Shown one piece after another: positions 12,592 through 40,017 of a DNA stretch of 40,372 nucleotides; the stretch's first letter is position 1, and the number at the start of each line of letters is the position of its first letter. The DNA comes from Pararhodobacter oceanensis (lineage in GTDB: Bacteria > Pseudomonadota > Alphaproteobacteria > Rhodobacterales > Rhodobacteraceae). The notes beneath the pieces are model-generated. The model had not been told where the DNA came from, searched no databases, and saw nothing but the letters and a program-made list of their open reading frames with translations. Location of the stretch: assembly GCF_003076755.1 (NCBI RefSeq), contig NZ_QDKM01000015.1:1-40372 (forward strand), written 5' to 3'. The translations under genes and the position numbers were made by a program.

Positions 12592-12660
12592 CATTCGTAG
12601 GGTGGCCCTCACCCTATGCGCATCTCTTTGCAAACCGTTCTCACGGAGAGGACTAGTCTC

Positions 12661-15633: not shown

Positions 15634-15636
15634 TCC

Positions 15637-16869
15637 ATGAGCATCGAAGTCCGCGTGCCCACTCTGGGCGAAAGTGTTTCGGAAGCCACCATCGCAACCT
15701 GGTATAAAGCGGTCGGTGACGCTGTCGCCGTCGATGAAATGCTCTGCGAGCTGGAGACCGATAAGGTCACCGTCGAGGTGCCCGCCCCCGCCGCTGGCGT
15801 GCTGTCGGAAATCATCGCCGCCGAAGGCGAGACCGTCGGCGTTGACGCCCTGCTGGCGATGATCTCGGAAGGTGCCGGCGCCGCCGCCACTCCGGCCAAA
15901 GAAGCGCCCGAAGCCAAAGCCGCCGAGCCGGCCCCTGCCGCCGAAGCCGCCGCCACCGGTAAAGCCGGCGAAGATGCGCCCGCCGCCAAAAAGGCGATGG
16001 CCGAAGCCGGTCTGACTGCCGATCAGGTGCAGGGCTCAGGCCGCGACGGTCGGGTGATGAAGGAAGACGTGCAAAAAGCCGTCGCCTCCGGTGCCGGTGC
16101 CTCCGCGCCCGCCGCTGCCCCTGCCGCGCCGGTCTCGGTGCCGCGCGGTCCGGTCAATGGCGACGATGCCGCGCGCGAAGAGCGGGTAAAGATGACCCGC
16201 CTGCGCCAGACCATCGCCCGCCGCCTCAAGGACGCGCAGAACACCGCCGCGATCCTGACCACCTATAACGAGGTGGATATGACCGAGGTGATGGAACTGC
16301 GCAAAACCTATAAGGACCAGTTCGAAAAGAAACACGGCGTGCGCCTTGGCTTCATGTCGTTCTTCACCAAGGCCTGCTGCCACGCGCTCAAGGAAGTGCC
16401 CGAGGTCAACGCCGAGATCGACGGCACCGATGTGGTCTATAAGAACTTCGTCCATATGGGCGTCGCGGCGGGCACGCCGCAGGGCCTCGTGGTGCCGGTG
16501 ATCCGCGATGTCGACGCGATGTCCTTTGCCGAGATCGAAAAGGCGATCGCCGAAAAGGGCAAACGCGCCCGCGACGGCAAGCTGACCATGGCCGAGATGC
16601 AGGGCGGCACCTTCACCATCTCGAACGGTGGTGTCTATGGCTCGCTGATGTCCTCGCCGATCCTCAACCCGCCGCAGTCGGGCATTCTGGGCATGCATAA
16701 AATCCAGGACCGGCCGATGGCGATCAACGGCGAGATTGTGATCCGCCCGATGATGTATCTGGCGCTCAGCTATGACCACCGGATCGTCGACGGCAAAGGC
16801 GCAGTGACCTTCCTCGTGCGGGTCAAAGAAGCCCTCGAAGACCCGCGCCGCCTGCTGATGGATCTGTAA
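15637..16869 (+). CDS. sucB: Dihydrolipoyllysine-residue succinyltransferase (E2 of oxoglutarate dehydrogenase)
   Basis: SucB forms the E2 core, moving succinyl from the lipoyl arm to CoA. Domain order: lipoyl domain (residues 1-76) with lipoylated Lys43 in ETDKVTVEV; an Ala/Pro-rich flexible linker; a peripheral-subunit-binding domain ([10 protein letters not shown]...[11 protein letters not shown], ~110-145); a second linker; and the acyltransferase domain ending in the catalytic SYDHRIVDG motif. The 410 residues include only one lipoyl domain, normal for SucB. A hairpin terminator follows, yet MAPEG and lpdA continue in the same direction. Confidence 0.97.
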
Positions 16870-16884
16870 GCGTCACAAATTAGG

Positions 16885-16930
16885 CGTGCGCCCTTTCTCC
16901 ATTGATAGGGCGCGCGTTCCCACTTTTTGT
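16885..16930 (+). terminator. Intrinsic terminator after sucB
   Basis: Arms CGTGCGCCCT (16885-16894) and AGGGCGCGCG (16907-16916) pair with one mismatch around a 12-nt loop and are followed by a T-rich stretch including CTTTTTG at 16924-16930. It would end or reduce sucCDAB transcription before the low-GC ORF. Confidence 0.65.
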
Positions 16931-16966
16931 AATGTCACTCCATTTGTCGGGAGGCACGATCAAATT

Positions 16967-17245
16967 ATGACAGAGTATACAGCTTACGAGCCCTATAGTG
17001 TGTCGCCGTGGCGATATGAACGCCTTCAGCGTATTGAAAATAGCTTGCGGATGATTTTTTCGCTTGCGAGCCACGAGAGTTTTTCAGACCTCGAAAAGCA
17101 GCTACTGCTCGTACATGACCACAAGGGCAACCTTCAATGCCAATGGAAATCCGCCGCTGGCTTGGAACAGTATAGTTCGCTCATTGATGCTCTGTGGTCT
17201 TTGCAAAACGAACCCGCCGAAATCAACGAACATATCGTTGCGTAG
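16967..17245 (+). CDS. Small unknown protein, AT-rich ORFan in the suc-lpd cluster
   Basis: The family is not recognised. The 92-residue product is soluble, with no signal peptide or membrane segment. It is rich in aromatic residues at its start (MTEYTAYEPYSVSPWRYERL), then amphipathic and helical. ATG 16967 is preceded by GGGAGG at about 12 bases. Its base composition and codon use are clearly more AT-rich than sucB and MAPEG on either side, which suggests it is newly acquired. It sits right after the sucB terminator and ends three bases before the MAPEG start. The frame could be extended upstream to 16886, but only through the terminator hairpin, so I reject that. Confidence 0.6.
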   Translation: MTEYTAYEPYSVSPWRYERLQRIENSLRMIFSLASHESFSDLEKQLLLVHDHKGNLQCQWKSAAGLEQYSSLIDALWSLQNEPAEINEHIVA

Positions 17246-17248
17246 CCC

Positions 17249-17638
17249 ATGACCCCCGAACTCCTCATCCTCACCCTCGCCGCCCTCCTGCAAGCCCTGC
17301 AGTTCTCCATCTATTCGGTGACCGCGCAGATGCAGGTCGGCAGCCGCTACGCCGCCGGTCCCCGTGACCGCCCGCGCGAGCTTACCGGCACCGCCGGCCG
17401 CGCCCAGCGGGCGATGAACAACCATTTCGAGGGGCTGATCCTCTTCGGCATCGCCGTCATGGTCGTCACCCTTGCCGATCAATCCACCACCACCACCCAG
17501 TTCGCCGCCTATACCTATCTCGGCGCGCGCCTTCTCTATGTCCCCGCCTATCTGCTCGGCTGGGCCCCCTGGCGCTCGCTGATCTGGTTCATCGGCTTTC
17601 TGGCCACCTTCACGATGCTGATCGCTGCCCTGATCTGA
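17249..17638 (+). CDS. MAPEG family membrane protein
   Basis: The 129-residue integral membrane protein has about four hydrophobic helices and the MAPEG pattern (RAQRAMNNHFEGLILF near residues 50-65, then YTYLGARLLYVPAYLLG). MAPEG proteins include membrane glutathione transferases. The substrate is unknown here. I recall similar genes between sucB and lpdA in other Rhodobacteraceae, supporting both family placement and true synteny. The ATG follows the ORFan stop directly. Confidence 0.88.
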   Translation: MTPELLILTLAALLQALQFSIYSVTAQMQVGSRYAAGPRDRPRELTGTAGRAQRAMNNHFEGLILFGIAVMVVTLADQSTTTTQFAAYTYLGARLLYVPAYLLGWAPWRSLIWFIGFLATFTMLIAALI

Positions 17639-17645
17639 CATCATC

Positions 17646-17713
17646 TTGCCCTAAATACTCTCGGGGGGTGAGGCGCCTAGCGCCGAGGGGGGCGACGCGC
17701 CCCCTGCCCCGGG
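17646..17713. repeat. GC-rich intergenic repeat typical of Rhodobacteraceae
   Basis: The segment starts CCCTAAATACTCTCGGGGGG and continues with nested GC palindromes (GGCGC-CTA-GCGCC, then GGGGGGCG-ACG-CGCCCCC). Motifs of the TAAATACTC-GGGGGGTGA type recur in many intergenic gaps in this bacterial family. I recall this rather than having measured it. It lies between MAPEG and lpdA and could act as an mRNA-stabilising or weak terminating structure. Confidence 0.55.
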
Positions 17714-17732
17714 CCACCACAGGAGACCACAT

Positions 17733-19121
17733 ATGGCTGACTTCGATCTCATCGTCATCGGCGCCGGACCCGGCGGTTACGTTTGCGCCATCCGCGCCGC
17801 GCAATTGGGCCTCAAAGTGGCCTGTGTCGAGGGCCGCGAGACCCTCGGCGGCACCTGCCTCAACGTCGGCTGCATCCCTTCCAAGGCGCTGCTCCATGCC
17901 ACCCATTCGCTGCATGAGGCCGAGCATAACTTCGCCAAAATGGGCCTCAATGTCGCCAAGCCCGAGGTCGATTGGGAGGCGATGCTCGCCTATAAGGACG
18001 ACACCATTTCCGGCAACACCAAGGGCATCGAATTCCTGTTCAAAAAGAACAAGGTGACATGGCTCAAAGGCTGGGCGTCGATCCCCGAATCCGGCAAGGT
18101 CACGGTCGGCGACGAGACCCATAGTGCCAAACATATCGTCATTGCTTCGGGCTCCGAGCCGACCTCGCTGCCCGGCGTCGAGGTCGACGAAGAGGTCGTC
18201 GTCACCTCCACCGGCGCGCTGACCCTCAAATCCGTGCCCGAGACCATGGTGGTGATCGGCGCCGGTGTCATCGGGCTGGAGATGGGTTCGGTCTATGCCC
18301 GCCTCGGCACGCAGGTCACGGTGATCGAATACCTTGACGAGATCACCCCCGGCATGGACGCCGAAGTCGCCAAGAGCTTCAAGCGCATCCTTGGCAAACA
18401 GGGGATGAAATTCGTCATGGGCGCGGCGGTCAGCAAGGTCACCCGCTCCGACACAGGCGCCGAGGTCACCTATACCGCGCGCAAGAAAGACACCGAGCAC
18501 AGCGTCAATGCCGATATCGTGCTGGTCGCCACCGGCCGCAAACCCTTCACCGAGGGTCTCGGGCTGGACGCTTTGGGTATCGAGCTGGAACCGCGCGGCC
18601 AGATCAAGACCAACGCGCAATTCGCCACCAATATCCCCGGCGTCTATGCCATCGGTGACGCGATTGTCGGCCCGATGCTGGCCCATAAGGCCGAAGACGA
18701 GGGCATGGCCGTGGCCGAAGTGGTCGCTGGCAAACATGGCCATGTGAACTACGGCGTGATCCCCAGCGTGATCTACACCTCGCCCGAAGTCGCCAGCGTG
18801 GGCCAGACCGAACAGCAACTCAAAGAGGAAGGCCGCGCCCATAAGGTCGGTAAATTCAGCTTCATGGGCAACGCCCGCGCCAAGGCGATCTTTCAGGCCG
18901 AGGGTTTCGTCAAACTTCTCGCCGACAAAGAGACCGACCGCATTCTGGGCTGCCATATCATCGGCCCCGCCGCCGGTGACCTGATCCATGAGGTCTGTGT
19001 GGCGATGGAATTCGGCGCCTCCGCCGAGGATCTGGCGCTGACCTGCCACGCGCATCCGACCTACTCCGAAGCCGTGCGCGAAGCCGCACTGGCCTGCGGC
19101 GACGGCCCGATCCACATGTGA
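17733..19121 (+). CDS. lpdA: Dihydrolipoyl dehydrogenase (E3)
   Basis: E3 reoxidises the dihydrolipoyl arm of SucB, giving NADH. The 462-residue flavoprotein has the FAD dinucleotide fold ([12 protein letters not shown]), the redox disulfide Cys42-LNVG-Cys47 followed by IPSKALL, the NAD site ([16 protein letters not shown]), and the C-terminal dimer-interface active site [17 protein letters not shown] 17733 has AGGAG at ideal spacing. As the last gene of the cluster it is followed by a strong terminator. It likely serves oxoglutarate dehydrogenase specifically. Confidence 0.97.
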
Positions 19122-19147
19122 TCCGCGCCTGAGCGAAACACCTAAAG

Positions 19148-19181
19148 ACGGGCCGCAGAGCAATCTGCGGCCCGTTCTCAT
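19148..19181 (+). terminator. Intrinsic terminator after lpdA
   Basis: A perfect 12-bp stem ACGGGCCGCAGA/TCTGCGGCCCGT encloses a GCAA tetraloop and runs into TCTCATT. It closes the suc-lpd cluster. Confidence 0.85.
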
Positions 19182-19274
19182 TCGCTGCGCCCTCTGCGCG
19201 CGCCACCGCAAAACTTGATCGAAATCTTCGCGCCTGCCACACTCCTTGCGGTAACCAGTAAGGACCCCACCGGT

Positions 19275-20228
19275 ATGCGTAACCTCCGCCCTCGGCCACT
19301 CCGCCTGCCGCTGCTCCTCGGCGCCGCGCTGATTGCCACCCCCGCTTTGGGCTTCGGCTGGGAGGTCTCAACCGATGTCGAGCAAGGCATCTTCTTCGGC
19401 CATGCCCGACTTCCCGGCGCCATGCTGCTACGCTGCGGCGGGCAACTCCCCGGCACCACCGGCACGGTTCCGATGTATTATATGGACAGCATTACCGCAC
19501 CGGGCACCCTGCATCTGGAACTCGACATGCATGCCTTCTCGGACACCAACGAAGGCCGCGCGCTCGCCGGCGCCGCGCTGCTCATTGACGGGCAGAGCCA
19601 TTCTCTGGGCGACATCGCCTATACCGATTACTACGGCGCCTTCCACCAGTCCTTCAGCCTCCATGCCCCGCTGGTCCAAGCCCTCCGACAGGCCGATAGC
19701 GTGACCCTGCTGGAACAAGGCGCCATCCGCGGCGGCATCCCCACCCAAGGCATGACAGCCGCCATAAGCAGTTTGATCGACTTCTGCATCGCCGGCGAAA
19801 ACGGCGCTCCTCTTCCCACCACCGCCACGCCGCCCACCCCGCCAACCGGCGCAAGTGCCGCCGAACGCCTGCTCGCATGGATCGAGCGCGGCTGCCCTAC
19901 TGGCCTGCAACGCCAGACCGGCGCTCTACTTCAAGACTTTGATCTGGATGGAGACGGTTTGGCAGACGCGGTTCTCGATAGTCGCGGCGTGACATGCGAC
20001 GGCGCCTACCCCTATTGTGGACAGGTGCAATGCGACGTGCCGGTGTTCCTGTCGTCGGTCCCCGGCACAGAACCGGCAGATGTGGTATTCGGCGCACGCC
20101 CCTCGATCATCCCCTCCACATCGGGGCTGCCCGCCTTGCAAATCTACGGACGCTGTGCCGACGGAAGCTTCGACTGCCTGCCACTTTCCTACCGCTGGCA
20201 GAGTGGCCAGCGACTACGCGTCCAATGA
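19275..20228 (+). CDS. Secreted protein with a DxDGDG calcium-loop-like motif, unknown function
   Basis: The family is not recognised. ATG 19275 gives a clear signal peptide (two Arg-rich turns, then LPLLLGAALIATPALG) and has AAGGA upstream, so I prefer it to an in-frame start at 19215. The mature ~290 residues contain an N-terminal globular region, a Thr/Pro linker (TPPTPPTG, ~residues 197-204) and a C-terminal part with DFDLDGDGLADAVLD. The last is the repeat seen in calcium-binding/FG-GAP-like loops. Several Cys (CDGAYPYCGQVQC) probably form disulfides. It is probably periplasmic or extracellular. It stands alone after the lpdA terminator. Confidence 0.65.
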   Translation: MRNLRPRPLRLPLLLGAALIATPALGFGWEVSTDVEQGIFFGHARLPGAMLLRCGGQLPGTTGTVPMYYMDSITAPGTLHLELDMHAFSDTNEGRALAGAALLIDGQSHSLGDIAYTDYYGAFHQSFSLHAPLVQALRQADSVTLLEQGAIRGGIPTQGMTAAISSLIDFCIAGENGAPLPTTATPPTPPTGASAAERLLAWIERGCPTGLQRQTGALLQDFDLDGDGLADAVLDSRGVTCDGAYPYCGQVQCDVPVFLSSVPGTEPADVVFGARPSIIPSTSGLPALQIYGRCADGSFDCLPLSYRWQSGQRLRVQ

Positions 20229-22810: not shown

Positions 22811-23686
22811 TTAAGCTCTTCTTTGCTCCTGCTGATCGGGTTTCGTGACTTCGATTTGCCGTGAGTAGACCACTACCGGCGGTTGGCCGCCAAGTGCTTT
22901 GTGCGGGCGGCGGTTATTGTAGAACTCCATCCAGTTGCGGACACCGGCGCGTGCTTGCGATCCGGTTTCCCAGGCATGCAGATAGACGCATTCGTATTTG
23001 AGGCTGCGCCACAGGCGTTCAATGAAGATGTTATCTAAGTAGCGGCCCTTGCCGTCCATAGAGATGCGGATGCCGGAACGGCGCAGGCGGTCTGACCAGG
23101 CGAAGGATGTAAACTGAGATCCTTGATCGCTGTTCATGATGTCCGGAGGGCCGAACCGATAGATCGCCTCGTTCAACGCCTCGAGGCAGAAGTCGGCGTC
23201 CAACGTGTTCGAGATACGCCACGACAGAACCATGCGGGTATGCCAGTCCATGATCGCCACCAGATAGAGGAAGCCTCGGCGCATCGGTAGGTAGGTTATG
23301 TCCACGCACCAGACCTGGTTTGGCCTGTCCACACGCAGCCCGCGCAGCAGGTAGGGATAGGTCTTATGCCCTTTCGTCGGCTTGCTAGTGTTGGGTTTCT
23401 GATAAATCGGCATGAGGCCCATCAGCCGCATGAGCCGACGGATGTGCTTCTCGTTCACTGCATGGCCATCGTTGCGCAGGTGCCACGTCATCTGTCGAAC
23501 ACCGAAGAACGGCGTGTCGAGGAACTGCACGTCGATCAACCGCATCAGGGCAAGATTCTGCTCGGTCTCTCCCTGCGGCGCATAGTAGAACGACGACCGC
23601 GGGATCGACAGCAGCGCACACTGCTGGCCGATCGACAGATCCGGATGGTCGCGTTCGATCATACCGCGCCTCACTTCCCGCCCCAA
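22811..23686 (-). CDS. IS3-family transposase OrfB (integrase core)
   Basis: The 291-residue frame has an N-terminal HTH_21-type region and an rve integrase core. The acidic triad is visible as Asp in VWCVDITYLP, Asp in MNSDQGSQFTS and Glu in FIERLWRSLKYE. The end of orfA overlaps it by 16 bases in another frame, so the active OrfAB fusion is expected to arise by -1 ribosomal frameshifting near the A/T-rich run at about 23700-23712. The start at 23686 is a TTG and is probably not used alone. Confidence 0.93.
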   Translation of the reverse strand: MGREVRRGMIERDHPDLSIGQQCALLSIPRSSFYYAPQGETEQNLALMRLIDVQFLDTPFFGVRQMTWHLRNDGHAVNEKHIRRLMRLMGLMPIYQKPNTSKPTKGHKTYPYLLRGLRVDRPNQVWCVDITYLPMRRGFLYLVAIMDWHTRMVLSWRISNTLDADFCLEALNEAIYRFGPPDIMNSDQGSQFTSFAWSDRLRRSGIRISMDGKGRYLDNIFIERLWRSLKYECVYLHAWETGSQARAGVRNWMEFYNNRRPHKALGGQPPVVVYSRQIEVTKPDQQEQRRA

Positions 23687-23970
23687 GGCTTGAGCTTTCT
23701 TTCCAAAAAAGAGTTAGCCACCGCCAGCTCTCCGATCTTGGCGTGCAGGTCCCTGATCTGATCTTCATCGATGACCGGGGCCTTGCGGCTACCGCGTTCG
23801 AAGACACCCGACGCGCCATCCAGCAGCGCACGTTTCCATTGGTTGATCATCGTCGGATGCACGCCGAACCGGCTCGCCAGCTCCGACACGGTCGCCTCAC
23901 CTTTCAGCGCTTCCAGCGCCACCTTCGCCTTGAATTCAGGGGCATGCTGCTTTCGTTTCGACATCTTCAA
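23671..23970 (-). CDS. IS3-family transposase OrfA (HTH protein)
   Basis: The 99-residue protein starts MKMSKRKQHAPEFKAKVALEAL, has the HTH segment TVSELASRFGVHPTMINQWKRALL and ends in a leucine-zipper-like helix, all standard for OrfA. It regulates transposition and provides the N-terminal half of OrfAB. Confidence 0.92.
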   Translation of the reverse strand: MKMSKRKQHAPEFKAKVALEALKGEATVSELASRFGVHPTMINQWKRALLDGASGVFERGSRKAPVIDEDQIRDLHAKIGELAVANSFLERKLKPWGGK

Positions 23971-25226
23971 TCTCCTTCGTAATGAAGATCAGCAGACAGC
24001 AAATCCGAGCTTGCGTCATAGTCCAGTTTTCGGGGACCACCTCAAGAGCTTAGGATCAAGCTGATGGAACGGATGCTCGGAGCCGAACTGACGGCGCATC
24101 TGGGCTATGAGGAAGGCAAAGACGCGCCACCGGGCCGGCCCAACCAGCGTAACGGCACATCAGCCAAGCGCCTGAAGGGCCAGGACGGCGAGACGGCGAT
24201 TTCTGTGCCGCGCGACCGGGACGGCAGTTTTGAGCCCGAGTTGATCAAGAAGGGCCAGACCTGGATCGACGGCATGGATGACAAGATCATTGGCCTTTAT
24301 GCCGCCGGCCTGACGGTTCGCGACATTCGCGCCCACCTTGAGGACGTTTATGGCCTTCAGGTCTCGCCTGATCTGATCAGCCGCGTCACTGACGCCGTGC
24401 TGGACGAGGTCCGCGAATGGCAGAGCCGAGCGCTCGACCGAATGTATCCCATCGTTATTTTCGATGCGCTCCGGGTCAAAATCCGCGATGCCGACAGCCC
24501 GATGGTGAAAAACAAGGCCGTCTATGTGGCCCTGGGCGTCTCACGGGACGGCGTCCGCGAGGTTCTGGGTCTTTGGATCGCCGAGAACGAGGGCGCCAAG
24601 TTCTGGTTGTCGGTGATGAACGAGCTGAAGAATCGCGGGGTTCAGGACATCCTCATCGCCGTCGTGGATGGGCTTAAGGGCTTCCCTGACGCAATCACGG
24701 CAGCCTTTCCCGATGCCGCGGTGCAAACCTGCATCGTTCACCTGGTCCGCCATTCCCTGAACTTCTGCGCATGGAAGGATCGCAAGGCGGTGGCCGCCGA
24801 TCTGCGTCTGATTTACGGTGCGCCGACCGCCGATCTGGCTGCCGCCGAGTTGGACGCTTTCGAGGAGAAATGGGCCGGGAAATACGCCTCGATTGCCCCG
24901 GCATGGCGGCGGGCATGGCAGGAGGTGATCCCGTTCTTCGCCTTCGATCCCGCGATCCGAAAGATCGTCTATACTACCAATGCCATAGAAAGCCTGAATC
25001 GGGTGATCCGGAAATCCATCAAGACCAGGGGCTCGTTCCCAACCGAGGAGGCCGCGACCAAGCTGATCTACCTGGCCATCCGCAACTTCGAGAAGGGAGG
25101 CAGGAATGTCCGAGAATGGTTTGCTGCCCGCAATCAATTCGCTATCATGTTCGACGAGCGCTTCAATGCGTGACCGTATCTGAAACCCGCATGGACCAGG
25201 CCAGATACACAGACTTCATGACACTC

Positions 25227-26077: not shown

Positions 26078-26758
26078 ATGACTATATTAGTGCTCGCCCC
26101 GCACGCCGACGACGAAGTCCTTGGCATGGGGGGCGCGATCGCAAAATTCGTTTCGGAAGGGTTAGGTGTAGAAGTAGCTGTACTTACCGGAAGCGGAAAT
26201 GAGCCACACCCAATCTGGCCAACCTCACACTGGGACGCGATTCGGGCAGAGTGCCGGACGGCAATGACTATACTAGGCTGCAAAGCCCCGATCTTCTGCG
26301 AACTCCCTGCGGCTTGCCTAGACAACATGCCCGCTCACGAAATCAATGAAGTCGTCGCTAATTTGATCGCCAACGTGGACCCTGAAGAAGTCTATGTCCC
26401 GTTCTCCTTCGACTTACATAAGGACCACGGGGCGATCGCTTATGGTGCATCGGTCGCTGCTCGCCCCTATTTGGCGGGAGCGAAGAAGATTCGGCGAGTT
26501 CTCGCTTATGAGACGCTGTCCGAAACTCACCTTTCACCACCCTATCTTGCTCCAGCGTTTCAACCCAATGTCTTCATTAATATATCCGAAACCATCGACA
26601 AGAAAATTGCTGCCATGCAAGCATATGCCAGCCAAATCCAGCCGGACAATCAGCCTCGTTCGGCAGCAGCGCTGAAAGCGCTTGCGACCTTACGTGGAAC
26701 ACATATTGGCGTCGCAGCAGCGGAAGCTTTTGTTCTTCTGGGGGAATATCAGCGATGA
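26078..26758 (+). CDS. PIG-L/LmbE-type zinc N-deacetylase
   Basis: The 226-residue protein is a metal-dependent amidase of the PIG-L family, which removes N-acetyl from GlcNAc-type sugars or similar amides. Zinc ligands are visible: His9 and Asp12 in PHADDEVLGMGG, and His117 in DLHKDHGAI (His114-x-x-His117). No signal peptide is seen, so it is cytosolic. ATG has TAGGAGA upstream. It is the first gene of the sugar locus and overlaps the next gene by ATGA. With a phosphoglycosyl transferase and a formyltransferase downstream, the substrate is probably a nucleotide- or lipid-linked amino sugar. AT-richer than core genes, suggesting transfer. Confidence 0.9.
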   Translation: MTILVLAPHADDEVLGMGGAIAKFVSEGLGVEVAVLTGSGNEPHPIWPTSHWDAIRAECRTAMTILGCKAPIFCELPAACLDNMPAHEINEVVANLIANVDPEEVYVPFSFDLHKDHGAIAYGASVAARPYLAGAKKIRRVLAYETLSETHLSPPYLAPAFQPNVFINISETIDKKIAAMQAYASQIQPDNQPRSAAALKALATLRGTHIGVAAAEAFVLLGEYQR

Positions 26759-27336
26759 TCTACCGCGATCATATAAAACGAGCGTTGGATCTTACGTTTG
26801 TTCTCTTGGCGCTCGCAGTTCTTGGCATCCCAATTCTACTCGCAATGGTCGTTGTGAAACTTTGTTCCCCCGGACCAATATTCTATTATCAAACCAGGGT
26901 CGGGCTTGGAGAGAAACCATTTAGAATCCTGAAATTGCGCACCATGACTGTCAATCCAAACCGAGTGAGTGTCCAAACCACTAACCACGACCCTGAAGTA
27001 TATCCGGCAGGTAAAGTTCTACGCCGTTTGAAAATTGACGAGTTGCCGCAACTTTTTAACATCTTGAGAGGCGATATGAGCTTTGTTGGGCCACGTCCCT
27101 GCTTGGTCCAAACCCGCAATACAATGCCAGACTGGGCACTCAGACGCTTCAAGGTTCGTCCAGGTATCACGGGACTCGCTCAAGTCAATGGTAACATCAC
27201 TCTGACGTGGGAGGAAAGATGGAAACACGATATAGAATACGTGGATCGCGCTAGCTTGCCACTTGATGTCGCGACATGCTTCCGAACATTCGTTGTTGTC
27301 CTTTTCGGAGAAGAGAGGTTCAAAAATCCACTATGA
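26755..27336 (+). CDS. Monotopic phosphoglycosyl transferase (PglC-like)
   Basis: The 193-residue enzyme would transfer a sugar-1-phosphate from a UDP-sugar to undecaprenyl phosphate, starting a lipid-linked glycan. An N-terminal re-entrant hydrophobic helix (residues ~10-35, with the Pro in LGIPILL) is followed by the bacterial sugar transferase domain. This has RTM, the catalytic Asp95-Glu96 in IDELPQLFNILRGDMSFVGPRP and RPGITGLAQVNG. The short length, without the extra helices and CoA-like domain of WbaP/WcaJ, puts it in the PglC class. It is coupled to its neighbours by ATGA overlaps on both sides. Confidence 0.92.
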   Translation: MIYRDHIKRALDLTFVLLALAVLGIPILLAMVVVKLCSPGPIFYYQTRVGLGEKPFRILKLRTMTVNPNRVSVQTTNHDPEVYPAGKVLRRLKIDELPQLFNILRGDMSFVGPRPCLVQTRNTMPDWALRRFKVRPGITGLAQVNGNITLTWEERWKHDIEYVDRASLPLDVATCFRTFVVVLFGEERFKNPL

Positions 27337-28325
27337 AGATTGCTGTGATTGGTGGTGTCAATTCCACACGTGTTTTAATACATTCACTTGCGAAACATGG
27401 CTATACCAATTGTAGGGTCTGGGGATATGTGCCCTCCGACTCATCAAGCGTTTCTGGCTGGTGTGATTTGCGTGCAGCGAGCGCCGCGCTGAATATGTCT
27501 TTTCAGCCCTTTCGCAAGGTTGCGGAGTGCGAGAACAAATTGCGGGCCTTTGCTCCCGATATTCTCTTTGTTGTTGGCCTCTCACAGATTGTGCCAACAT
27601 CCATGCTTGGAATATCACGAATCGGGAATATTGGCTTTCACCCAACCGCCCTCCCGCGTGGGCGTGGCAGGGCAGCGATTGCATGGATGATTCTTCACCG
27701 AACCGACGGTGCAGCGAGCTTTTTTGAGCTTCGAGGGGGCGTGGATGACGGGCCGATTATAGTTCAGGAAACGTTTCGGGTAAATGACACCGACGATGCG
27801 GCAACGGTTGAAGCTAAGATTCTTGAGGCGGAGGCGCGCGCGCTCGACAAATGGCTGCCGACACTGCGCGAAAACGGTATTGTTGGCATTGAACAAGATC
27901 ACAAACAAGCAACATGGCTTGGAAGACGAACACAAGACGACGGTTGGCTGAATTGGTCGCAGCCTCGCGAGGAAATCCTAGCTCTGATTCGAGCAAGTGC
28001 GCCACCACATCCAGGTGCATTTACCTATTATAATGATACACGCATCGAAATCACTGCGGCTCGCGTTTGCGACCGACCAGAGACCGGAGTAACAGGGCGG
28101 ATTGTTGCCGTTTACAATGATCGCGGCTTTGATGTCCAATGTGGCGATGCCCTCATCACGATAAAACGTTGGCAAGGTTCCCACTCATGGCAACCGAGAG
28201 TAGGAATGAAGCTTGGTTATTATGTTGAAGTAGAGGTTTTCAAGTTGTTATCATTAGTCAAAAATCTTGAGCAGCGCATCGAAACCTTAGAACACGACAT
28301 TGAAAGACTTCAACAAGGCACTTGA
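27333..28325 (+). CDS. Formyltransferase-family protein (sugar N-formyltransferase) with C-terminal coiled coil
   Basis: The 330-residue protein matches the Formyl_trans_N fold used by Fmt, ArnA and sugar N-formyltransferases. Catalytic residues are visible: Asn99 and His103 in NIGFHPTALPRGRG, and Asp138/Asp139 in GGVDDGPII. Residues ~205-290 form a C-terminal OB-like domain (FTYYNDTRIEI ... GDALITIKRWQG). The last ~25 residues (VKNLEQRIETLEHDIERLQQ) have clear heptads, an unusual coiled-coil tail for oligomerisation. ATG 27333 overlaps the previous stop. Fmt itself is unlikely because the tRNA-binding domain is poor and the gene lies in a sugar locus. Next to a deacetylase, N-formylation of a freed amino sugar is the likely role. 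Confidence 0.82.
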   Translation: MKIAVIGGVNSTRVLIHSLAKHGYTNCRVWGYVPSDSSSVSGWCDLRAASAALNMSFQPFRKVAECENKLRAFAPDILFVVGLSQIVPTSMLGISRIGNIGFHPTALPRGRGRAAIAWMILHRTDGAASFFELRGGVDDGPIIVQETFRVNDTDDAATVEAKILEAEARALDKWLPTLRENGIVGIEQDHKQATWLGRRTQDDGWLNWSQPREEILALIRASAPPHPGAFTYYNDTRIEITAARVCDRPETGVTGRIVAVYNDRGFDVQCGDALITIKRWQGSHSWQPRVGMKLGYYVEVEVFKLLSLVKNLEQRIETLEHDIERLQQGT

Positions 28326-28467
28326 GCGACGGATTCGTGGGAAGGCGCATACATATCTGACTTTTGGCCAAGAATATGTGTAACGGACTTTGAAAAAGAT
28401 TTAGAAAATCGGAATAACTATTTGACTAACCTAAGTTCAGTATCGTTCAATTACCAAAGGAAATAAT

Positions 28468-29115
28468 ATGAAACTGTTCGGAGTTTATGGAGCAAGTGGT
28501 TTCGGGCGTGAAGTAATGCCCTTGCTGCGTCAACAGCTCGAGGGGGAAGGAAATGTGGAATGCGTTTTCGTAGATGACGGCGGATCAATAAACACCGTCA
28601 ATGGTCACAAATCCATTTCATTTGACGAATTCAGGAACCATCCAGCTGAACGCAGATTTATTTCGATTGCCATCGGCGCCGGAGAAACCAGAGTAGAGTT
28701 GGCGAAACGATGCGCCAACTTCAGCATTCCTGTACTAAATATTCGAGCGGTCAATAGTATTGTAATGGATAACGTGACAATTGGAGATGGTCATATTTTA
28801 TGTGCGTTTACCACCATTACTTCTAATGTATCGATTGGACGCCATTTTCACGCCAATATCTATTCGTATGTGGCCCATGATTGTGTGATAGGGGACTTTG
28901 TGACCTTCGCCCCAGGTGTGATGTGCAATGGTAACGTCCGCGTCGAAGACCACGCATACGTAGGGACGGGTGCTGTTTTGCGACAGGGTGCGCCAGATAA
29001 ACCGTTGGTAATCGGAGAGGGCGCTATCGTTGGTATGGGGGCGGTCGTGACCCGAGATGTCCGTCCGTGGACGACGGTTGTAGGAAATCCGGCCAAACCA
29101 CTCATTAAGGAATAA
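28468..29115 (+). CDS. PglD/NeuD-type sugar O/N-acetyltransferase
   Basis: The 215-residue protein has an N-terminal Rossmann-like nucleotide-sugar-binding domain (LFGVYGASGFGREVMPLL) and a C-terminal left-handed beta helix with hexapeptide repeats. The catalytic His137 lies in YVAHDCVIGD. The end VVGNPAKPLIKE is typical of the family. PglD acetylates the 4-amine of UDP-2-acetamido-4-amino-sugars. ATG has AAAGGAAA upstream. A 142-bp AT-rich gap separates it from the formyltransferase gene, so it may have its own promoter. The aminotransferase follows two bases after its stop. Confidence 0.9.
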   Translation: MKLFGVYGASGFGREVMPLLRQQLEGEGNVECVFVDDGGSINTVNGHKSISFDEFRNHPAERRFISIAIGAGETRVELAKRCANFSIPVLNIRAVNSIVMDNVTIGDGHILCAFTTITSNVSIGRHFHANIYSYVAHDCVIGDFVTFAPGVMCNGNVRVEDHAYVGTGAVLRQGAPDKPLVIGEGAIVGMGAVVTRDVRPWTTVVGNPAKPLIKE

Positions 29116-29117
29116 TC

Positions 29118-30245
29118 ATGCGCATTTACCTTTCGCGCCCGCATATGTCTGGCCATGAAGAAGCCCGCGTTGCCGAGGCATTCGCGTCGAACTTCGTGGC
29201 CCCACTTGGGCCCCAGCTCGACGCCTTCGAGGATCGGGTTCGCGAGTATCTTGGGGCTGATGTCTATTGCGTAGGGCTGTCTTCGGGCTCCGCAGCGCTA
29301 CATCTTGCCCTGCGTATCGCCGGCGTGGGGCGCGGCGACGAAGTATGGGTGTCCTCGATGACCTTTGCTGGCGGGGTTTTCCCGGTCAATTACCTCGGCG
29401 CCACACCCCGGTTTTTTGACCTCACCCCGGCAAGCTGGACGATAGATACAGGCATAGTTGCGGAAGAATTGGCCAAAGCATCGCGCGAAAACCGCCTGCC
29501 GAAAGCCATTGTGCCGACCGATCTTTACGGCCAATCAGTTGATCTTGATCCGTTGGAAGTCCTTGCCGAGCAATACGGCGTCCGCCTTATCGTCGACAGC
29601 GCCGAGAGCCTTGGCGCGAGCTACAAGAACGGGCGCAAGGCTGGCACTGGCGGCGACGCGGCTATCCTGTCGTTCAATGGCAACAAAATCATCACAACCT
29701 CGGGCGGCGGTATGCTGGTCACGCGGCATAAAGCCTGGGCAGATGAGGCGCGCTTCCTCGCAACACAGGCGCGTGATACTGCTCCACACTACGAGCATTC
29801 GACCTTCGGCTACAATTACCGCCTGTCCAACATCTGCGCTGCGATAGGGCTGGGACAAATGGAAGTCCTCGACGATCGCGTTGCGCGTCGTCGCGAGATT
29901 TATAAGCGCTACAAGGATGCACTATTGCGTCCGGGTATAGAATTCACGCCCGAACCCGTAGGGCTGTATTCGACACGCTGGCTTACTACATTGACCATCG
30001 ACGTTGCGGAAACTGATGTCTCGCGTGAAGACATTCGTTTGATGCTATTGGAGCACCGGATCGAATCCAGACCGCTTTGGAAGCCGATGCATTTGCAGCC
30101 ACTTTATGTTGGCGCATCTTATCACGGCACGGGCGTCGATCAAAGACTCTTTGAAGATGGGCTTTGTTTGCCGTCTGGCAGTGACATGCATGAAGATCAA
30201 CAGGTTGAAGTGATCGAATTGGTGAAGGCATTATTGGGCGATTAG
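29118..30245 (+). CDS. DegT/DnrJ/EryC1-family sugar aminotransferase (PglE-like)
   Basis: The 375-residue PLP enzyme has SSGSAALHLALRIAGVGRGDEV near its start, Asp/Ser contacts in DSAESLGASY, and the PLP lysine Lys190 in FNGNKIITTSGGGML. It would aminate a 4-keto sugar, making the amine that the upstream acyltransferase modifies. The 4,6-dehydratase that makes the keto sugar is not in the window. GC content is visibly higher than in the four genes upstream, so it may have a different origin. It ends the locus. IS66 debris follows within 200 bp. Confidence 0.92.
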   Translation: MRIYLSRPHMSGHEEARVAEAFASNFVAPLGPQLDAFEDRVREYLGADVYCVGLSSGSAALHLALRIAGVGRGDEVWVSSMTFAGGVFPVNYLGATPRFFDLTPASWTIDTGIVAEELAKASRENRLPKAIVPTDLYGQSVDLDPLEVLAEQYGVRLIVDSAESLGASYKNGRKAGTGGDAAILSFNGNKIITTSGGGMLVTRHKAWADEARFLATQARDTAPHYEHSTFGYNYRLSNICAAIGLGQMEVLDDRVARRREIYKRYKDALLRPGIEFTPEPVGLYSTRWLTTLTIDVAETDVSREDIRLMLLEHRIESRPLWKPMHLQPLYVGASYHGTGVDQRLFEDGLCLPSGSDMHEDQQVEVIELVKALLGD

Positions 30246-30442: not shown

Positions 30443-30699
30443 GTAACCGAGCGATTGATACCGCGGCTTATGCGGCTTGACTGCGGGCCTCGTCGGCCAG
30501 CGGCACCCATTGCCACGGCAACAGCTCATCGAGCCTGTTGATCTTGTGATTATGGATGCGGGCGAGAATGTCGGCGAGATAGGCCTGCGGATCGAGGCCG
30601 TTCAGTTTGGCGGTCTCGATGATGGTCATAGCGCGGGCCAAGGTTTCGGCACCGGTGTCAGCGCCTGCAAATAGCCAGTTCTTGCGGCCTATCCGGATT
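30443..30699 (-). pseudogene. IS66 TnpC C-terminal remnant with terminal repeat
   Basis: The minus strand encodes RIGRKNWLFAGADTGAETLA, RAMTIIETAKLNGLDPQAYL and so on to a stop at 30468-30470. This matches the end of the intact TnpC at 31776-33410 with a few differences (LLPWQWVP versus LLPWNWAP). The IS66 end GTAACCGAGCGATTGATACC starts at 30443. It is a related but distinct IS66 copy, reduced to about 250 bp, in the opposite orientation to the intact one. Confidence 0.85.
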
Positions 30700-30903
30700 G
30701 CAGAGATCTACCGCATCGAGGCTGAAATACGCGGCATGGGTCCAGGCCAACGGCGCTCTGCACGGGAGGCCCGCACCGCACCCAAGGTGGCTGAGTTCGG
30801 CGAATGGCTGCAAAGCCAGCGCCAACGGATCTCCTCAAAGTCGCGGCTTGGTGAAAAGCTGACCTACATCCATCGTCAGTGGGACGGATTGCAGACCTTC
30901 CTC
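30700..30903 (+). pseudogene. IS66 TnpC fragment, 5' piece of a broken second-type copy
   Basis: The plus-strand translation reads IYRIEAEIRGMGPGQRRSA ... SKSRLGEKLTYIHRQWDGLQTFL, nearly identical in pattern to residues ~380-450 of the TnpC at 38040-39608. It stops exactly at the left terminal repeat of the complete IS66 element (30904). The matching C-terminal piece appears at 33714-33942. Confidence 0.88.
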
Positions 30904-31003
30904 GTAACCACACCATTGCTACCGCCTGCCGCGTGGCGTCGTCAGATCTTAAGCTCTGTCGTTATTGTCGTCGTTACTGACGTCGTATGAAATGGAGCCA
31001 GAT

Positions 31004-31369
31004 ATGCGTCATGAAGTGATCGTCGGCGTTGAGCGGAGACGGCGTTGGCGGGCGGAGGAGAAGCTGTCGATCCTCGACGAGGTTGGGCAGAATGGTGCCA
31101 CGGTCAGCGATGTGGCGCGGCGCCACGACATCACGCGGCAGCATATCTACCAGTGGCGCCAGGAGTTTCGGCGCAAAGGGCTCTGGCCTCGGACGGCGGA
31201 AACGGTTTTTCTTTCATTGCCGCCGCCATGTGAGGGACCAGACACATCCGGGGGCACCCAACGTCCGGAGGTCGAAATTTTACTGGGGAACGGTCGCAGC
31301 CTGCGATGTGCAAGTGACTTATCGCCTGAGCGCCTCCAGCACCTTATTCGCGCGGTTGAAACGGCATGA
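31004..31369 (+). CDS. tnpA: IS66 TnpA (HTH accessory protein)
   Basis: The 121-residue IS66 OrfA begins MRHEVIVGVERRRRWRAEEKL and carries an HTH (TVSDVARRHDITRQHIYQWRQEF). ATG 31004 is the family start. The frame extends upstream to 30965 without support. It overlaps tnpB by ATGA. All three IS66 proteins are needed for transposition in characterised members. Confidence 0.9.
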   Translation: MRHEVIVGVERRRRWRAEEKLSILDEVGQNGATVSDVARRHDITRQHIYQWRQEFRRKGLWPRTAETVFLSLPPPCEGPDTSGGTQRPEVEILLGNGRSLRCASDLSPERLQHLIRAVETA

Positions 31370-31713
31370 TCGGGCCCGGCACCGGCGTTCGCGTGTATCT
31401 GGGCTGCGGTGTGACCGACATGCGCAAGGGGATCGCCGGACTGTCCGCCATGGCGCAAGATGTGTTGCGGCAGAAACCGGCGGGTGGTGCCGTATTCGCC
31501 TTCCGGGGACGCCGCGGCGACCGGATTAAACTGCTCTATTGGGATGGTCAGGGATTTTGCCTCTACTATAAGGTTCTGGAGCGTGGTCGCTTTCCGTGGC
31601 CCAATACGGCCTCTGGATCGGCGCGCCTGACCTCAGCCCAGTTGGCAATGCTGTGGGAAGGAATCGACTGGCGGCGTCCCGACTGGGGCGCTCCGCCTGC
31701 GCGCGTCGGATGA
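31366..31713 (+). CDS. tnpB: IS66 TnpB
   Basis: The 115-residue TnpB (IS66 Orf2) has RVYLGCGVTDMRKGIAGLSA, then FRGRRGDRIKLLYWDGQGFCLYYKVLERGRF, the conserved block of the family. Its biochemical role is unknown. It is coupled to tnpA by the ATGA overlap. Confidence 0.92.
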   Translation: MIGPGTGVRVYLGCGVTDMRKGIAGLSAMAQDVLRQKPAGGAVFAFRGRRGDRIKLLYWDGQGFCLYYKVLERGRFPWPNTASGSARLTSAQLAMLWEGIDWRRPDWGAPPARVG

Positions 31714-31775
31714 TTTTACGCTTTGTTTTGCGTTATTTATATGGTGTTTGCGCCTGATTTTTGGTAGTCGGGCGC

Positions 31776-33410
31776 ATGTCGAAACCTGCCAAAGATCTGC
31801 CAAATGATCCTGCCGAATTGAGGGCGATGATTGCGGCATTACAGGCAGAGAATGCGAAAATCGCGGCGGAAAACGCCAAGATGTCGGCCACGCTGCGGGT
31901 CCATGATCAGCTGGTTCAAGCGTTGCGTTTGCGGATTGCCAAGCTACAGAAACTGGCCTTTGGCAAATCATCGGAAAAGATCGAACGCGAAATTGAACAG
32001 CTGGAACTGGCGCTGGAAGACCTGCTTGTTGCTGTCGCCGAAGGTGACGATGACCTCATAGATGAAGGTCAGGGCGAGCCTGAGCCCCATGAGGTGTCTG
32101 CCCCCACACTGCGCCGCCGTCCGCGTGTCTCGGAAGCGACCCCGCGCGAGCGCCGCGAGCTTGATCCCGGCACCTGCTGCCCCGACTGTGGTGGTGATCA
32201 GCGTGTAGTCGGCGAGGATGTCAGCGAACTCCTAGATATGATCGCGGCGCAGATGAAGGTGGTCCAGATCGCCCGCATCAAGAAGTCCTGTCGCCGTTGC
32301 GAGCGGATGGTGCAGGAGCCGGCACCCAGCCGCCCGATCCCTGGCAGCATGGCTGGCCCGAACTTGCTGGCGCATATCCTGGTCTCGAAATTCGACGACC
32401 ACCTTCCCCTTTACCGACAGCACGAAATCTTCGCCCGCATGGGCGCGGACATTCCCGAAAGCACGCTTGTTGGCTGGTCCGGACGGGCGATGAAGACCCT
32501 TGCACCATTGGTCGAGCGCATTGAGGCCGACATCATGGCCAGCGATCTGCTGCACGCTGACGACACGCCAATCCGGGTGCTGGACCGCTCCAAAAGAGAC
32601 AAGGGGCTTGGTAAAGGCGTGAAACAGGGACGGATCTGGGCCTATGTGCGCGATCAACGACCTTGGGCGGGGGCGTCGCCACCCGGTGCTGTTTACCGGT
32701 TTGCACCCGACTGGAAGCAGGAGCATGTGCAAAAGCATCTGGCCCAGATGCGCGGCATTCTACAGGCCGACGGCTATAAGGGCTATGCCATGCTCTACGA
32801 GCCTCAACCTGATGGCACGCCGCGTTTGCGCGAGGCAGCCTGTTGGGCGCATCTGCGGCGGGACTTCCATGACTTTTGGACATCGACCAAGTCCGAGATC
32901 GCCCGTGCGGCACTTGACCGGATCGGCGAGTTTTACGACATCGAGCGCGACATTAACGGCCAGACGGCAGAGACCCGGCAGGCCGTGCGCGAAAAGCAGA
33001 GCCGGCTCAAGGTCGAAGCCTTCTTCGCTTGGTCGGAACAACAGCTCCTGCGCATCCCGGGTAAAAGCGACCTGGCCAAAGCCTTCCGTTATGGCCTCAA
33101 TCGACGAGAGGCCCTCAGCCTGTTCCTGACCGATGGGCGCGTGGCCATCGACAATAACCCCGCGGAGCGTGCCCTGCGCCCGATCGGGATAGGCCGCAAG
33201 AACTGGCTATTTGCAGGCGCAGACACCGGTGCCGAAACCTTGGCCCGCGCCATGACCATCATCGAGACCGCCAAGCTGAACGGCCTCGATCCGCAGGCCT
33301 ATCTCGCCGACATTCTCGCCCGCATCCATGATCACAAGATCAACCGGCTGAACGAATTGCTGCCGTGGAACTGGGCACCAGACGATGCCGAGAACAGTCA
33401 AGCAGCATAA
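31776..33410 (+). CDS. tnpC: IS66 TnpC transposase (DDE)
   Basis: The 544-residue transposase has an N-terminal leucine-zipper-like region (LQAENAKIAAENAKMSATL), a zinc-finger segment (CCPDCGGDQ ... CRRCERM) and the DDE core, with Asp in LLHADDTPIRVLD, Asp in LQADGYKGYAM and Glu in NNPAERALRPIG. It is intact. ATG 31776 is preferred to the in-frame start at 31761. About 60 non-coding bases separate it from tnpB. Confidence 0.92.
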   Translation: MSKPAKDLPNDPAELRAMIAALQAENAKIAAENAKMSATLRVHDQLVQALRLRIAKLQKLAFGKSSEKIEREIEQLELALEDLLVAVAEGDDDLIDEGQGEPEPHEVSAPTLRRRPRVSEATPRERRELDPGTCCPDCGGDQRVVGEDVSELLDMIAAQMKVVQIARIKKSCRRCERMVQEPAPSRPIPGSMAGPNLLAHILVSKFDDHLPLYRQHEIFARMGADIPESTLVGWSGRAMKTLAPLVERIEADIMASDLLHADDTPIRVLDRSKRDKGLGKGVKQGRIWAYVRDQRPWAGASPPGAVYRFAPDWKQEHVQKHLAQMRGILQADGYKGYAMLYEPQPDGTPRLREAACWAHLRRDFHDFWTSTKSEIARAALDRIGEFYDIERDINGQTAETRQAVREKQSRLKVEAFFAWSEQQLLRIPGKSDLAKAFRYGLNRREALSLFLTDGRVAIDNNPAERALRPIGIGRKNWLFAGADTGAETLARAMTIIETAKLNGLDPQAYLADILARIHDHKINRLNELLPWNWAPDDAENSQAA

Positions 33411-38039: not shown

Positions 38040-39608
38040 TCATGTTGACGGGTTGAAGTTCCAAGGCAGCAATTCGTCGATACGGTTTTGGGGATGCCCG
38101 CGTGCGATGGCCTCGAGCGTGGCCTTGAGATAGGCGAAGGGTTCCACGCCGTTGATCTTGGCGGTTTCTATCAGCGAGGCGATGCGTCCCCAGGCTTTTC
38201 CGCCCTCGTCATGACCTGCAAACAAGGCGTTTTTCCTGTTCAACGCGATTGGGCGGATCATATTCTCGACGCTGTTGGAGTCGATTTCGACGCGGCCGTC
38301 ATTAAGAAAGGTCTGCAGGCCATCCCAATGGCGGTGGATATAGGCCAGCTTTTCGCCAAGCCGGGATTTTGCCGAGACGCGCAGCCGTTTCTTCTGCAGC
38401 CAGTCGCCGAATGCAGAGACCAGAGGCACAGTGCGGGTCTGCCGGGCCGACAGGCGCTGGCCGGGTCCCATATCGCGGATCTCGCCCTCGATGTGATAGA
38501 ACTCCGCTATACGGCGCAGGCCTTCGGCCGCGATCTCGGATCCATCGCGATCGAACACCTCCTTCAGCTTGCGACGTGCGTGCGCCCAACAATACGCCAC
38601 GCGGATTGGGTCGCCACCCTTGCGGGAGGGGCGCGTCAGGCGATTGTAGCCCTGATAGCCATCGATTTGCAGGGTGCCATCAAAGCCGTGCAGGATCTTC
38701 TCGGCGTTCTCACCGGCGCGGCCGGGGGCGTAGGTGAAGACCACGCCGGGCGGATCGGCACCGCCCCACCCCCGATCATCACGGGCCAGTGCCCAGAGGT
38801 AGCCGGTCTTGGTCCGGCCGCGCCCGGGATCAAGCACTGGCGCCGTGGTTTCATCCATGAACAGCTTGGTGGAGGTTTTCAGATTCTCGGCCAGCCGGTC
38901 GACCACGGGCCTGAGGTGGAACGCAGCCACCCCCACCCAATCGGCCAGCGTGCCGCGATGGATGTTAACTCCGGAACGTCCGAGGATCTGGCTCTGTCGA
39001 TACAGCGGAAGATGGTCGGCGTATTTGCTGACCAGCACATGTGCGATGGCCCCTTCAGTTGGCAGGCCGCCTTCGATCAGAGCGGCGGGGGCCGGAGCCT
39101 GTGTGACACCATCGGTGCAGGTGCGGCAGGCGTATTTGGGGCGGACGGTGACAAGCACGCGCAATTGCGCGGGCAGGATATCCAGCCGCTCGGTGCGGTC
39201 CTCGCCGATCTTGTGCATCTTTCCGCAGCCGCAAGGGCAAACGAGGCTGTCGGGCTCAATGATCCGCTCGATCCGCGGCAGATCCTCAGGCAGGTTGCCG
39301 CGAATGCGTTTGGCTACCCGTTTGCGCTTGGGCGTGGCATCGTCGGTCGCCTGATCCTGTTTTTGCTCCTCGGTCTCGGCGACAGCGATCTGCAAATCCT
39401 CAAAGGCCAACTGCCGCTCGTCTTCGCTCAGCTTTTCCGATCGCTTGCCATGCACCACATGGTTCAGCTCGGCCACAAGGTGCTCGAGGCGCTTGTTGAT
39501 CTCTTCCAGCTCGGACACGCGCGCGGCCGTTGCCTGCAAGGCTTCGAAGGCCGTGCGGTAATCAGGCGGCAGAATGGAGAGATCGAGGACTTTGGCAGCA
39601 TCGGTCAT
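38040..39608 (-). CDS. tnpC: IS66 TnpC transposase
   Basis: The 522-residue frame is full length. It has an N-terminal coiled coil (RVSELEEINKRLEHLVAELN), a zinc-finger segment (LVCPCGCGKMH ... YACRTC) and the DDE core, with Asp in LFMDETTAPVLD, Asp in LQIDGYQGY and Glu in IDSNSVENMIRP. The protein is intact although tnpA of the same element is broken, so it could act in trans at most. Confidence 0.92.
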   Translation of the reverse strand: MTDAAKVLDLSILPPDYRTAFEALQATAARVSELEEINKRLEHLVAELNHVVHGKRSEKLSEDERQLAFEDLQIAVAETEEQKQDQATDDATPKRKRVAKRIRGNLPEDLPRIERIIEPDSLVCPCGCGKMHKIGEDRTERLDILPAQLRVLVTVRPKYACRTCTDGVTQAPAPAALIEGGLPTEGAIAHVLVSKYADHLPLYRQSQILGRSGVNIHRGTLADWVGVAAFHLRPVVDRLAENLKTSTKLFMDETTAPVLDPGRGRTKTGYLWALARDDRGWGGADPPGVVFTYAPGRAGENAEKILHGFDGTLQIDGYQGYNRLTRPSRKGGDPIRVAYCWAHARRKLKEVFDRDGSEIAAEGLRRIAEFYHIEGEIRDMGPGQRLSARQTRTVPLVSAFGDWLQKKRLRVSAKSRLGEKLAYIHRHWDGLQTFLNDGRVEIDSNSVENMIRPIALNRKNALFAGHDEGGKAWGRIASLIETAKINGVEPFAYLKATLEAIARGHPQNRIDELLPWNFNPST

Positions 39609-39663
39609 GATCAGATTTATAACGCAACATCAGATCTATAACCGCTATATTCAGCCACCTGAT

Positions 39664-40017
39664 TCATTCTGCCGCAGCTGGCTTGTGTGCCTCCAGCGCC
39701 CTGACCTTGCGCCAATCCAATCCCGCAAACAACGCCTCGAACTGGACCCGGTTCAGCGTCATCACGCCCTCCCGGATCGCTGGCCAGGTGAACGTCGTTT
39801 CCTCCAACCGCTTGTAGGCCATGACCAGCCCGGTCCCGTCCCAGAACAGGATCTTCAGCCTGTCGGCCCGCTTGGCGCGGAACACAAACACCGTGCCGGT
39901 GAAAGGGTCTTCCTGCAAAACCGACTGCGCCAACGCCGCCAGCCCGTCATGACCTTTCCTAAAATCGACCGGCTGCGTTGCCACCAGAATGCGCACTCTG
40001 TGCGAGGGCATCACCAT
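39664..40017 (-). CDS. tnpB: IS66 TnpB
   Basis: The 117-residue TnpB reads RVRILVATQPVDFRKGHDGL and VFRAKRADRLKILFWDGTGL, the conserved IS66 Orf2 block. It overlaps the tnpA stop by seven bases. Confidence 0.92.
   Translation of the reverse strand: MVMPSHRVRILVATQPVDFRKGHDGLAALAQSVLQEDPFTGTVFVFRAKRADRLKILFWDGTGLVMAYKRLEETTFTWPAIREGVMTLNRVQFEALFAGLDWRKVRALEAHKPAAAE

Follow-up and report, generated by a model that had tools for sequence, protein, structure and literature searches.

The window analysed here is the entire contig C15 of Pararhodobacter oceanensis (NZ_QDKM01000015.1, 40,372 bases, forward strand), and our subject is a five-gene cassette within it, in which genes for a predicted N-deacetylase of the PIG-L/LmbE type (PIG-L), a phosphoglycosyl transferase (PGT) and a formyltransferase (FT) are followed by genes for an acetyltransferase and an aminotransferase:

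26078..26758, + strand: predicted PIG-L/LmbE-type metal-dependent N-deacetylase, 226 amino acids; PF02585 at 67.9 bits (cut-off 28.2); H9-x-D11-D12-E13 and H114-x-D116-H117
26755..27336, + strand: small PglC-like PGT, 193 amino acids; PF02397 at 194.7 bits; Asp95-Glu96 dyad
27333..28325, + strand: FT of the Gly-x-His clade, 330 amino acids, with a C-terminal helix; PF00551/PF02911; Gly101-Phe-His103; Asp138
28468..29115, + strand: NeuD/PglD-type left-handed beta-helix sugar N-acetyltransferase, 215 amino acids; TIGR03570 at 164.9 bits, above the cut-off of 160.8
29118..30245, + strand: DegT/LegC/PglE-type aminotransferase, 375 amino acids; PF01041 at 274 bits; TIGR04181 at 317 bits, below the cut-off of 420

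Pfam and NCBIfam agree on the families, and the Pfam gathering cut-offs for PIG-L, Bac_transf, Formyl_trans_N/C, Hexapep, PglD_N and DegT are exceeded. ATGA forms both the PIG-L/PGT (26755) and the PGT/FT (27333) junction; a preliminary description of this stretch had the three genes fused by such motifs, and while the ATGA junctions are there, they are overlaps and not fusions. The open reading frame list starts the FT at 27276; the ATG at 27333 overlaps the PGT stop and matches the relatives. The PglD- and PglE-like genes reported to follow the trio are indeed in place. The cassette genes have a GC content of 0.48-0.57 versus 0.60 for positions 1-20000 of the window, and transposase genes of the IS256, IS3 and IS66 insertion sequence (IS) families lie on both sides, so the cassette was probably acquired.

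The deacetylase combines its PF02585 match with the (A/P)HxDDE motif and a distal metal-binding His, as expected of the PIG-L/LmbE family, and H9, D11, D12, E13, D112, D116, H117 and E145 are invariant in 25 aligned sequences. Its structure model has a predicted local distance difference test score (pLDDT) of 93.7, and its nearest folds are diacetylchitobiose deacetylase, TT1542 and BshB, along with teicoplanin deacetylases and MshB; by their known functions or entry titles, these are mostly glucosamine N-deacetylases. The PGT fits the small monotopic PglC type, having the PF02397 core, D95-E96, a length of only 193 residues and no large N-terminal region, and its closest solved relative in a PDB comparison is PglC itself (8e37, E 3.6e-37). 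With the aminotransferase and the acetyltransferase it accounts for three of the four kinds of gene that a bacillosamine (Pgl) pathway would need. The dehydratase PglF had been described as absent, which holds for the window but not for the genome, where a full-length PglF-like gene lies unlinked to the cassette (C3:16676-18493). NeuB and NeuC were not found in a profile scan of the window, which thus shows no legionaminic acid pathway. On another host contig (C18, locus L238) a dehydratase-like match, an aminotransferase and a NeuB-family gene were seen, which probably belong to a further nonulosonic acid pathway.

In ArnA-type sugar N-formyltransferases the Asn of an N-x-H motif, two residues before the His, is catalytic, and we take the catalytic positions of ArnA to be N102/H104/D140. 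Alignment with ArnA sets Gly101-Phe-His103 of the window FT opposite Asn-Leu-His, with Asn99 two columns off. The residues quoted in the preliminary description (H9/D12/H114/H117 in PIG-L, D95-E96 in the PGT, N99/H103/D138 in the FT) are therefore all present, but Asn99 is ruled out as the counterpart of the ArnA Asn, that column being held by Gly101. The protein thus has the Formyl_trans_N/C fold with the His and Asp of a canonical ArnA-type enzyme and lacks its Asn-x-His. All 30 aligned clade sequences, a set picked as Gly-x-His, have Gly101, His103 and Asp138, and Gly112-Arg113 and both formyltransferase domains are kept in the clade. In a tree of 62 rows, the 30 Gly-x-His rows, five viral rows and L023, which is also Gly-x-His, form a single clade (support 99/92) that joins the group holding ArnA (99/95); long branches were flagged for PurN, the Asn-x-His row of L131, L017, L159, L157 and L023, whose exact placement is unsure. 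A grouping with Fmt, raised as a possibility in the preliminary description, was not seen: Fmt-like rows fall elsewhere in the tree, and the Fmt profile TIGR00460 gives the window FT 93.2 bits against a cut-off of 201.5. PurN was likewise ruled out by family profiles and the tree. The structure model (pLDDT 86.0, from a nine-row alignment) has ArnA as its nearest fold. The Gly-x-His FTs form a distinct formyltransferase clade, sister to ArnA and without the expected Asn. The window FT itself groups with Bacteroidota members (a six-member group, 100/99), which fits horizontal transfer.

The distribution of the two enzymes was then compared across Pseudomonadota and Bacteroidota genomes and viral contigs. 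Gly-x-His FTs were called by reading the motif in the sequence of each locus, for 31 matches with loci and 20 more at 186-226 bits among the best-scoring candidates of each genome, so that the number of Pseudomonadota genomes with such an FT is a lower bound of at least 20. The gap in scores from 314 to 234 bits does not delimit the clade, as the FTs of G143 (228), G263 (206), G375 (205) and G810 (193) are also Gly-x-His. A matching PIG-L is found in 18 of these 20 genomes (eight of eight and nine of ten searched genome-wide, plus G263, where it adjoins the FT), and the two genes lie at most 1.5 kb apart in 16 of the 20, counting G545, whose PIG-L start overlaps the FT and whose contig ends immediately beyond. 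In Bacteroidota, where matches with E up to 1e-60 only were kept, the FT occurs in 8 of 395 genomes, with PIG-L in the same cassette in all eight, and PIG-L also accompanies the FT in the two viral loci that yielded one. Within one family of 198 genomes, PIG-L is present in five of five with the FT (at least 227 bits) versus 2 of 193 others (Fisher 8.7e-9), related genomes not being independent in this test, though each represents a separate genus. As a control, this PIG-L was found in 1 of 22 genomes chosen for ArnA-type (Asn-x-His) FTs, the sole exception (G793, locus L249) having it beside NeuB with two other formyltransferase-domain reading frames nearby, and was absent from all of 18 additional Asn-x-His loci (7-9 kb each). 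Distances among FTs correlate with those among PIG-Ls (24 pairs, Mantel r 0.777, a value reached in 0 of 5000 permutations), a correlation to which shared ancestry contributes. The linkage of FT and PIG-L is beyond chance, and co-occurrence in other genomes, on which the preliminary description had made its proposal depend, was found in most genomes examined. No match to the trio turned up in E. coli genomes at the DNA level. A scan of genome contigs brought up three distant relatives, with no paired PIG-L in their loci; L015 and L016 are Asn-x-His sequences of the Fmt type.

The pair occurs in two genomic contexts. In a profile scan, 35 chosen loci divided into 15 with PGT, 13 with NeuB and/or NeuC but no PGT, and seven with neither; none had both. 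Five of these stretches have no PIG-L above threshold; for L046, L054, L100 and L036 it was located in another part of the genome or record, and none was found for L059 (G375). Among the PGT loci, L136 has PGT, FT, PIG-L, NeuD, aminotransferase and PglF in a single run, and L137 has PglF, PIG-L, PGT, FT and NeuD in an order resembling the window. In Leisingera sp. S132 the PGT, FT and PIG-L genes follow one another with four-base overlaps, the aminotransferase comes next and a PglF-like gene adjoins, and Ruegeria sp. B32 has PGT-FT-PIG-L and a second FT. Sinorhizobium medicae keeps its aminotransferase, PIG-L and PGT genes together, with the FT and a PglF-like gene about 14 kb off in a region that also holds sulfotransferase and export genes. 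The two Gly-x-His FT copies of Ruegeria sp. B32 lie on a plasmid (L034, L141), and one of them lies between two inverted copies of a polysaccharide gene block that share the same protein accessions.

In the nonulosonic-acid context the FT comes immediately after NeuC in 11 of the 13 loci. NCBIfam cut-offs are passed for LegB, LegC, NeuB and NeuC in L058 and for NeuB and NeuC in L131, L133 and L063; the remaining loci were assigned to the nonulosonic-acid context by home-made profiles, the legionaminic type being claimed only where tested. An RGRH segment after the motif (KGRH in L133) is found in 13 FTs, 12 of them in this context and the last, L057, with neither PGT nor NeuB/NeuC. Half of the 28 loci with PGT or NeuB/NeuC (14) have a NeuD match, and in L131 a separate Asn-x-His FT occupies the slot (LegH) held by NeuD in L058 and L133, with the PIG-L/FT pair present too. 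On one 469-kb viral contig (L158, 4111-7694) FT, PIG-L, a LegB-like gene and an aminotransferase stand in a row, with a NeuB match downstream.

Both the bacillosamine and the legionaminic-type pathway pass through a UDP-linked 2-acetamido-4-amino (or acetamido) trideoxy-glucose. Gene identities, motifs, predicted folds, the recurrent linkage and the two contexts are observed, and from them we infer the substrate, the C2 position, the sequence of reactions, formyl as the group moved and the carrier level. We consider it reasonably probable that PIG-L and the Gly-x-His FT form a two-step N-acyl exchange module acting on a bacillosamine-type sugar, more likely while this is nucleotide-linked or free. 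PIG-L would strip an N-acetyl group, most probably the one carried over at C2 from UDP-GlcNAc, and the FT would add a formyl group from 10-formyl-tetrahydrofolate to the amine thus exposed. In the window the sugar acted on would be of the bacillosamine type, made by the PglF-like dehydratase, the aminotransferase and the NeuD/PglD acetyltransferase, and the small PGT would then load the product onto undecaprenyl phosphate, where it would begin a surface glycan; the module would be the same where its neighbours are nonulosonic (legionaminic-type) acid genes. In the half of the classified loci that have NeuD, N4 is probably already acetylated, and the formyl group would therefore go to another nitrogen, free only once deacetylated. 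The arrangement in L131, where an Asn-x-His FT takes the 4-amine slot, likewise suggests that the PIG-L/FT pair probably serves another nitrogen, and for these two reasons exchange at C2 is favoured. Exchange on the nucleotide sugar appears more likely than on the lipid, because the nonulosonic-acid loci show no PGT and because ArnA, the nearest fold and sister clade of the FT, formylates a UDP-amino sugar. The preliminary description had proposed an acetyl-to-formyl exchange on a lipid-linked amino sugar: the exchange now has strong genomic support in the co-occurrence and the correlated distances, but the lipid-linked part is not specifically supported, since the same pair directly follows NeuC in operons that show no PGT, suggesting that the two contexts share an intermediate that is nucleotide-linked or a free sugar.

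Several observations weigh against such a joint role. The FT-linked PIG-Ls do not form one clade in the PIG-L tree, which requires seven label changes with support low in places, and the PIG-L of L106, which has no FT, nests among them. The two genes are 43 kb apart in G066 and 15 kb in G831, each on one contig, and 14-20 kb apart in Sinorhizobium. No matching PIG-L was found in G375 (genome-wide) or G810 (in the 9 kb read), whose FTs are basal-looking and without the RGR segment, nor in the Parabacteroides record NZ_OY725780.1, where the FT runs off the record end; this is one of two Parabacteroides records (with NZ_OY725812.1) that have PGT-FT at the extreme end. There is no NeuD match in 9 of the 15 PGT loci (L035, L044, L045, L052, L094, L096, L100, L135 and L141), some of these stretches being short, and in such loci the FT could formylate the 4-amine directly while PIG-L acts elsewhere. 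To our knowledge no activity is known for any member of the Gly-x-His clade, and with the ArnA-type Asn missing the group transferred could differ.

The same exchange might take place after loading, with the PGT making undecaprenyl-diphosphate-linked N,N'-diacetylbacillosamine (Und-PP-diNAcBac) and PIG-L and FT then acting on it at the membrane. This would suit the single cassettes of PIG-L, PGT and FT in the window, G1085 and G1258 and the tight PGT-FT-PIG-L arrangements in Leisingera, Ruegeria, G105, G057, G765, G988, G1315 and G940, and PIG-L enzymes acting on lipid-linked GlcNAc do exist (GlcNAc-phosphatidylinositol). It is nonetheless rather unlikely given that in 13 of 35 loci the FT is accompanied by NeuB and/or NeuC while the stretch gives no PGT match, and given the UDP-sugar substrate of ArnA. 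That the two enzymes instead work on separate nitrogens or sugars, the FT formylating the aminotransferase-derived 4-amine and PIG-L freeing an amine elsewhere, we regard as unlikely: it would fit the PGT loci without NeuD and the known sugar formyltransferases, which act on 3- or 4-amines. A 7-formamido-pseudaminic-type acid is also described from Pseudoalteromonas distincta (PMC3210612). The formamido group of that sugar is at the C4-derived position and needs no exchange. NeuD near the pair in half of the loci and the separate FT of L131 speak against separate nitrogens, and co-inheritance with correlated divergence is hard to explain if the steps are independent.

A third explanation, that the clade moves another acyl group or hydrolyses, Gly having replaced the Asn, draws on the invariance of Gly101 in the set picked for it and on 10-formyltetrahydrofolate dehydrogenase, which likewise lacks that Asn; the conservation of His103, Asp138, Gly112-Arg113 and both domains and a predicted fold matching ArnA make it quite improbable. 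Finally, the flanking IS256, IS3 and IS66 genes and the lower GC content would be compatible with fortuitous neighbours in an IS-rich island, with no joint function, but this is contradicted by the co-occurrence counts and by a linkage that recurs in many genera, in Bacteroidota and on viral contigs in varied gene orders, and we find it scarcely credible.

We would retain the C2 exchange by PIG-L and FT as the preferred explanation. A broader proposal, to which we give slightly less than even credence, is that the pair is a portable N-acyl-swap module which works on the nitrogen at C2 of UDP-bacillosamine-type sugars and which PglC-initiated glycans, legionaminic-type pathways and phages have taken up, that its FT active site works without the Asn, and that acyl swapping may be general in surface-sugar diversification.

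Among known systems, the N-terminal formyltransferase of ArnA (UDP-L-Ara4N formyltransferase) shares with the window FT the two-domain fold, the His and Asp positions and the RGR segment, and is its best solved relative and sister clade, whereas the window FT has Gly101 for Asn, has no decarboxylase fusion and is linked to PIG-L and a bacillosamine or legionaminic-type pathway. With the PglF/PglE/PglD/PglC bacillosamine pathway the window shares an aminotransferase, a NeuD/PglD acetyltransferase and a PglC-like PGT, all in one cassette, and L136 has all four genes with PIG-L and FT; the window differs in adding a deacetylase and a formyltransferase and in its unlinked dehydratase. De-N-acetylation of glucosamine followed by a new N-substituent is known from NodB/NodA, MshB and teicoplanin deacetylase, the latter two deacetylases being fold relatives of the window PIG-L, and we know of none of these systems that uses a formyltransferase. 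In the open-licence literature no description of a deacetylase/formyltransferase pairing was found. The pair would thus be a known logic, deacetylation and re-acylation, in a new form with a distinct formyltransferase clade, its activity being predicted from sequence. A parallel in product is Halorubrum sp. PV6, which is reported to make 5-N-formyl-legionaminic acid by a LegB/C/H/I/G/F pathway with one gene named as a possible N-formyltransferase, in a text that has no word beginning 'deacetyl' (PMC6137143).

The exchange offers a gene-level hypothesis for how formyl reaches a nitrogen that arrives from UDP-GlcNAc already acetylated, and could explain 5-N-formyl-legionaminic acid, whose formyl step has so far been tentatively assigned and is now directly testable. 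A set of surface polysaccharides would also be expected to begin with an N-formyl sugar, among them that of the sulfotransferase-rich Sinorhizobium medicae plasmid cluster, and the invariant residues of the Gly-x-His clade offer targets for such tests.

PIG-Ls related to that of the window but without a Gly-x-His FT adjoin NeuB in L234, L247 and L248. In L248, from a Sinorhizobium mexicanum plasmid, a second PIG-L (9494-14080) occurs with NeuC, a GNAT-type acetyltransferase, NeuD and NeuB and no formyltransferase, the GNAT-type gene lying between NeuC and NeuD. In the viral loci L153, L154 and L155 (about 4300-5663) a NeuD-like acyltransferase overlaps a PIG-L of the subfamily, with no formyltransferase match in the locus, and among viral PIG-L loci any match to the FT profile, several of them weak, is found in 17 of 80. 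The GNAT-type gene of L248, the NeuD-like genes of L153 and L155 and the other formyltransferase reading frames of G793 suggest that PIG-L may pair with various acyltransferases.

The transposase genes of the IS3, IS256 and IS66 families around the cassette lie at 22811-25173, 30506-33410 and 38040-40017 of the window, and an inverted repeat (193 nt, 93%; 30506-30698/33183-33375) and a direct repeat (130 nt, 88%; at 30996 and 33953) may mark IS66 remnants. In the same IS-rich half of the contig (34093-36218 and 36836-37624) a gene for a sulfatase-fold protein and one for a diacylglycerol kinase overlap, and a CDP-alcohol phosphatidyltransferase is encoded close by, possibly a phosphoglycerol-transfer set. 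Near the left contig end, at 1466-4549, lies a type III restriction-enzyme-like gene with ResIII and endonuclease domains.

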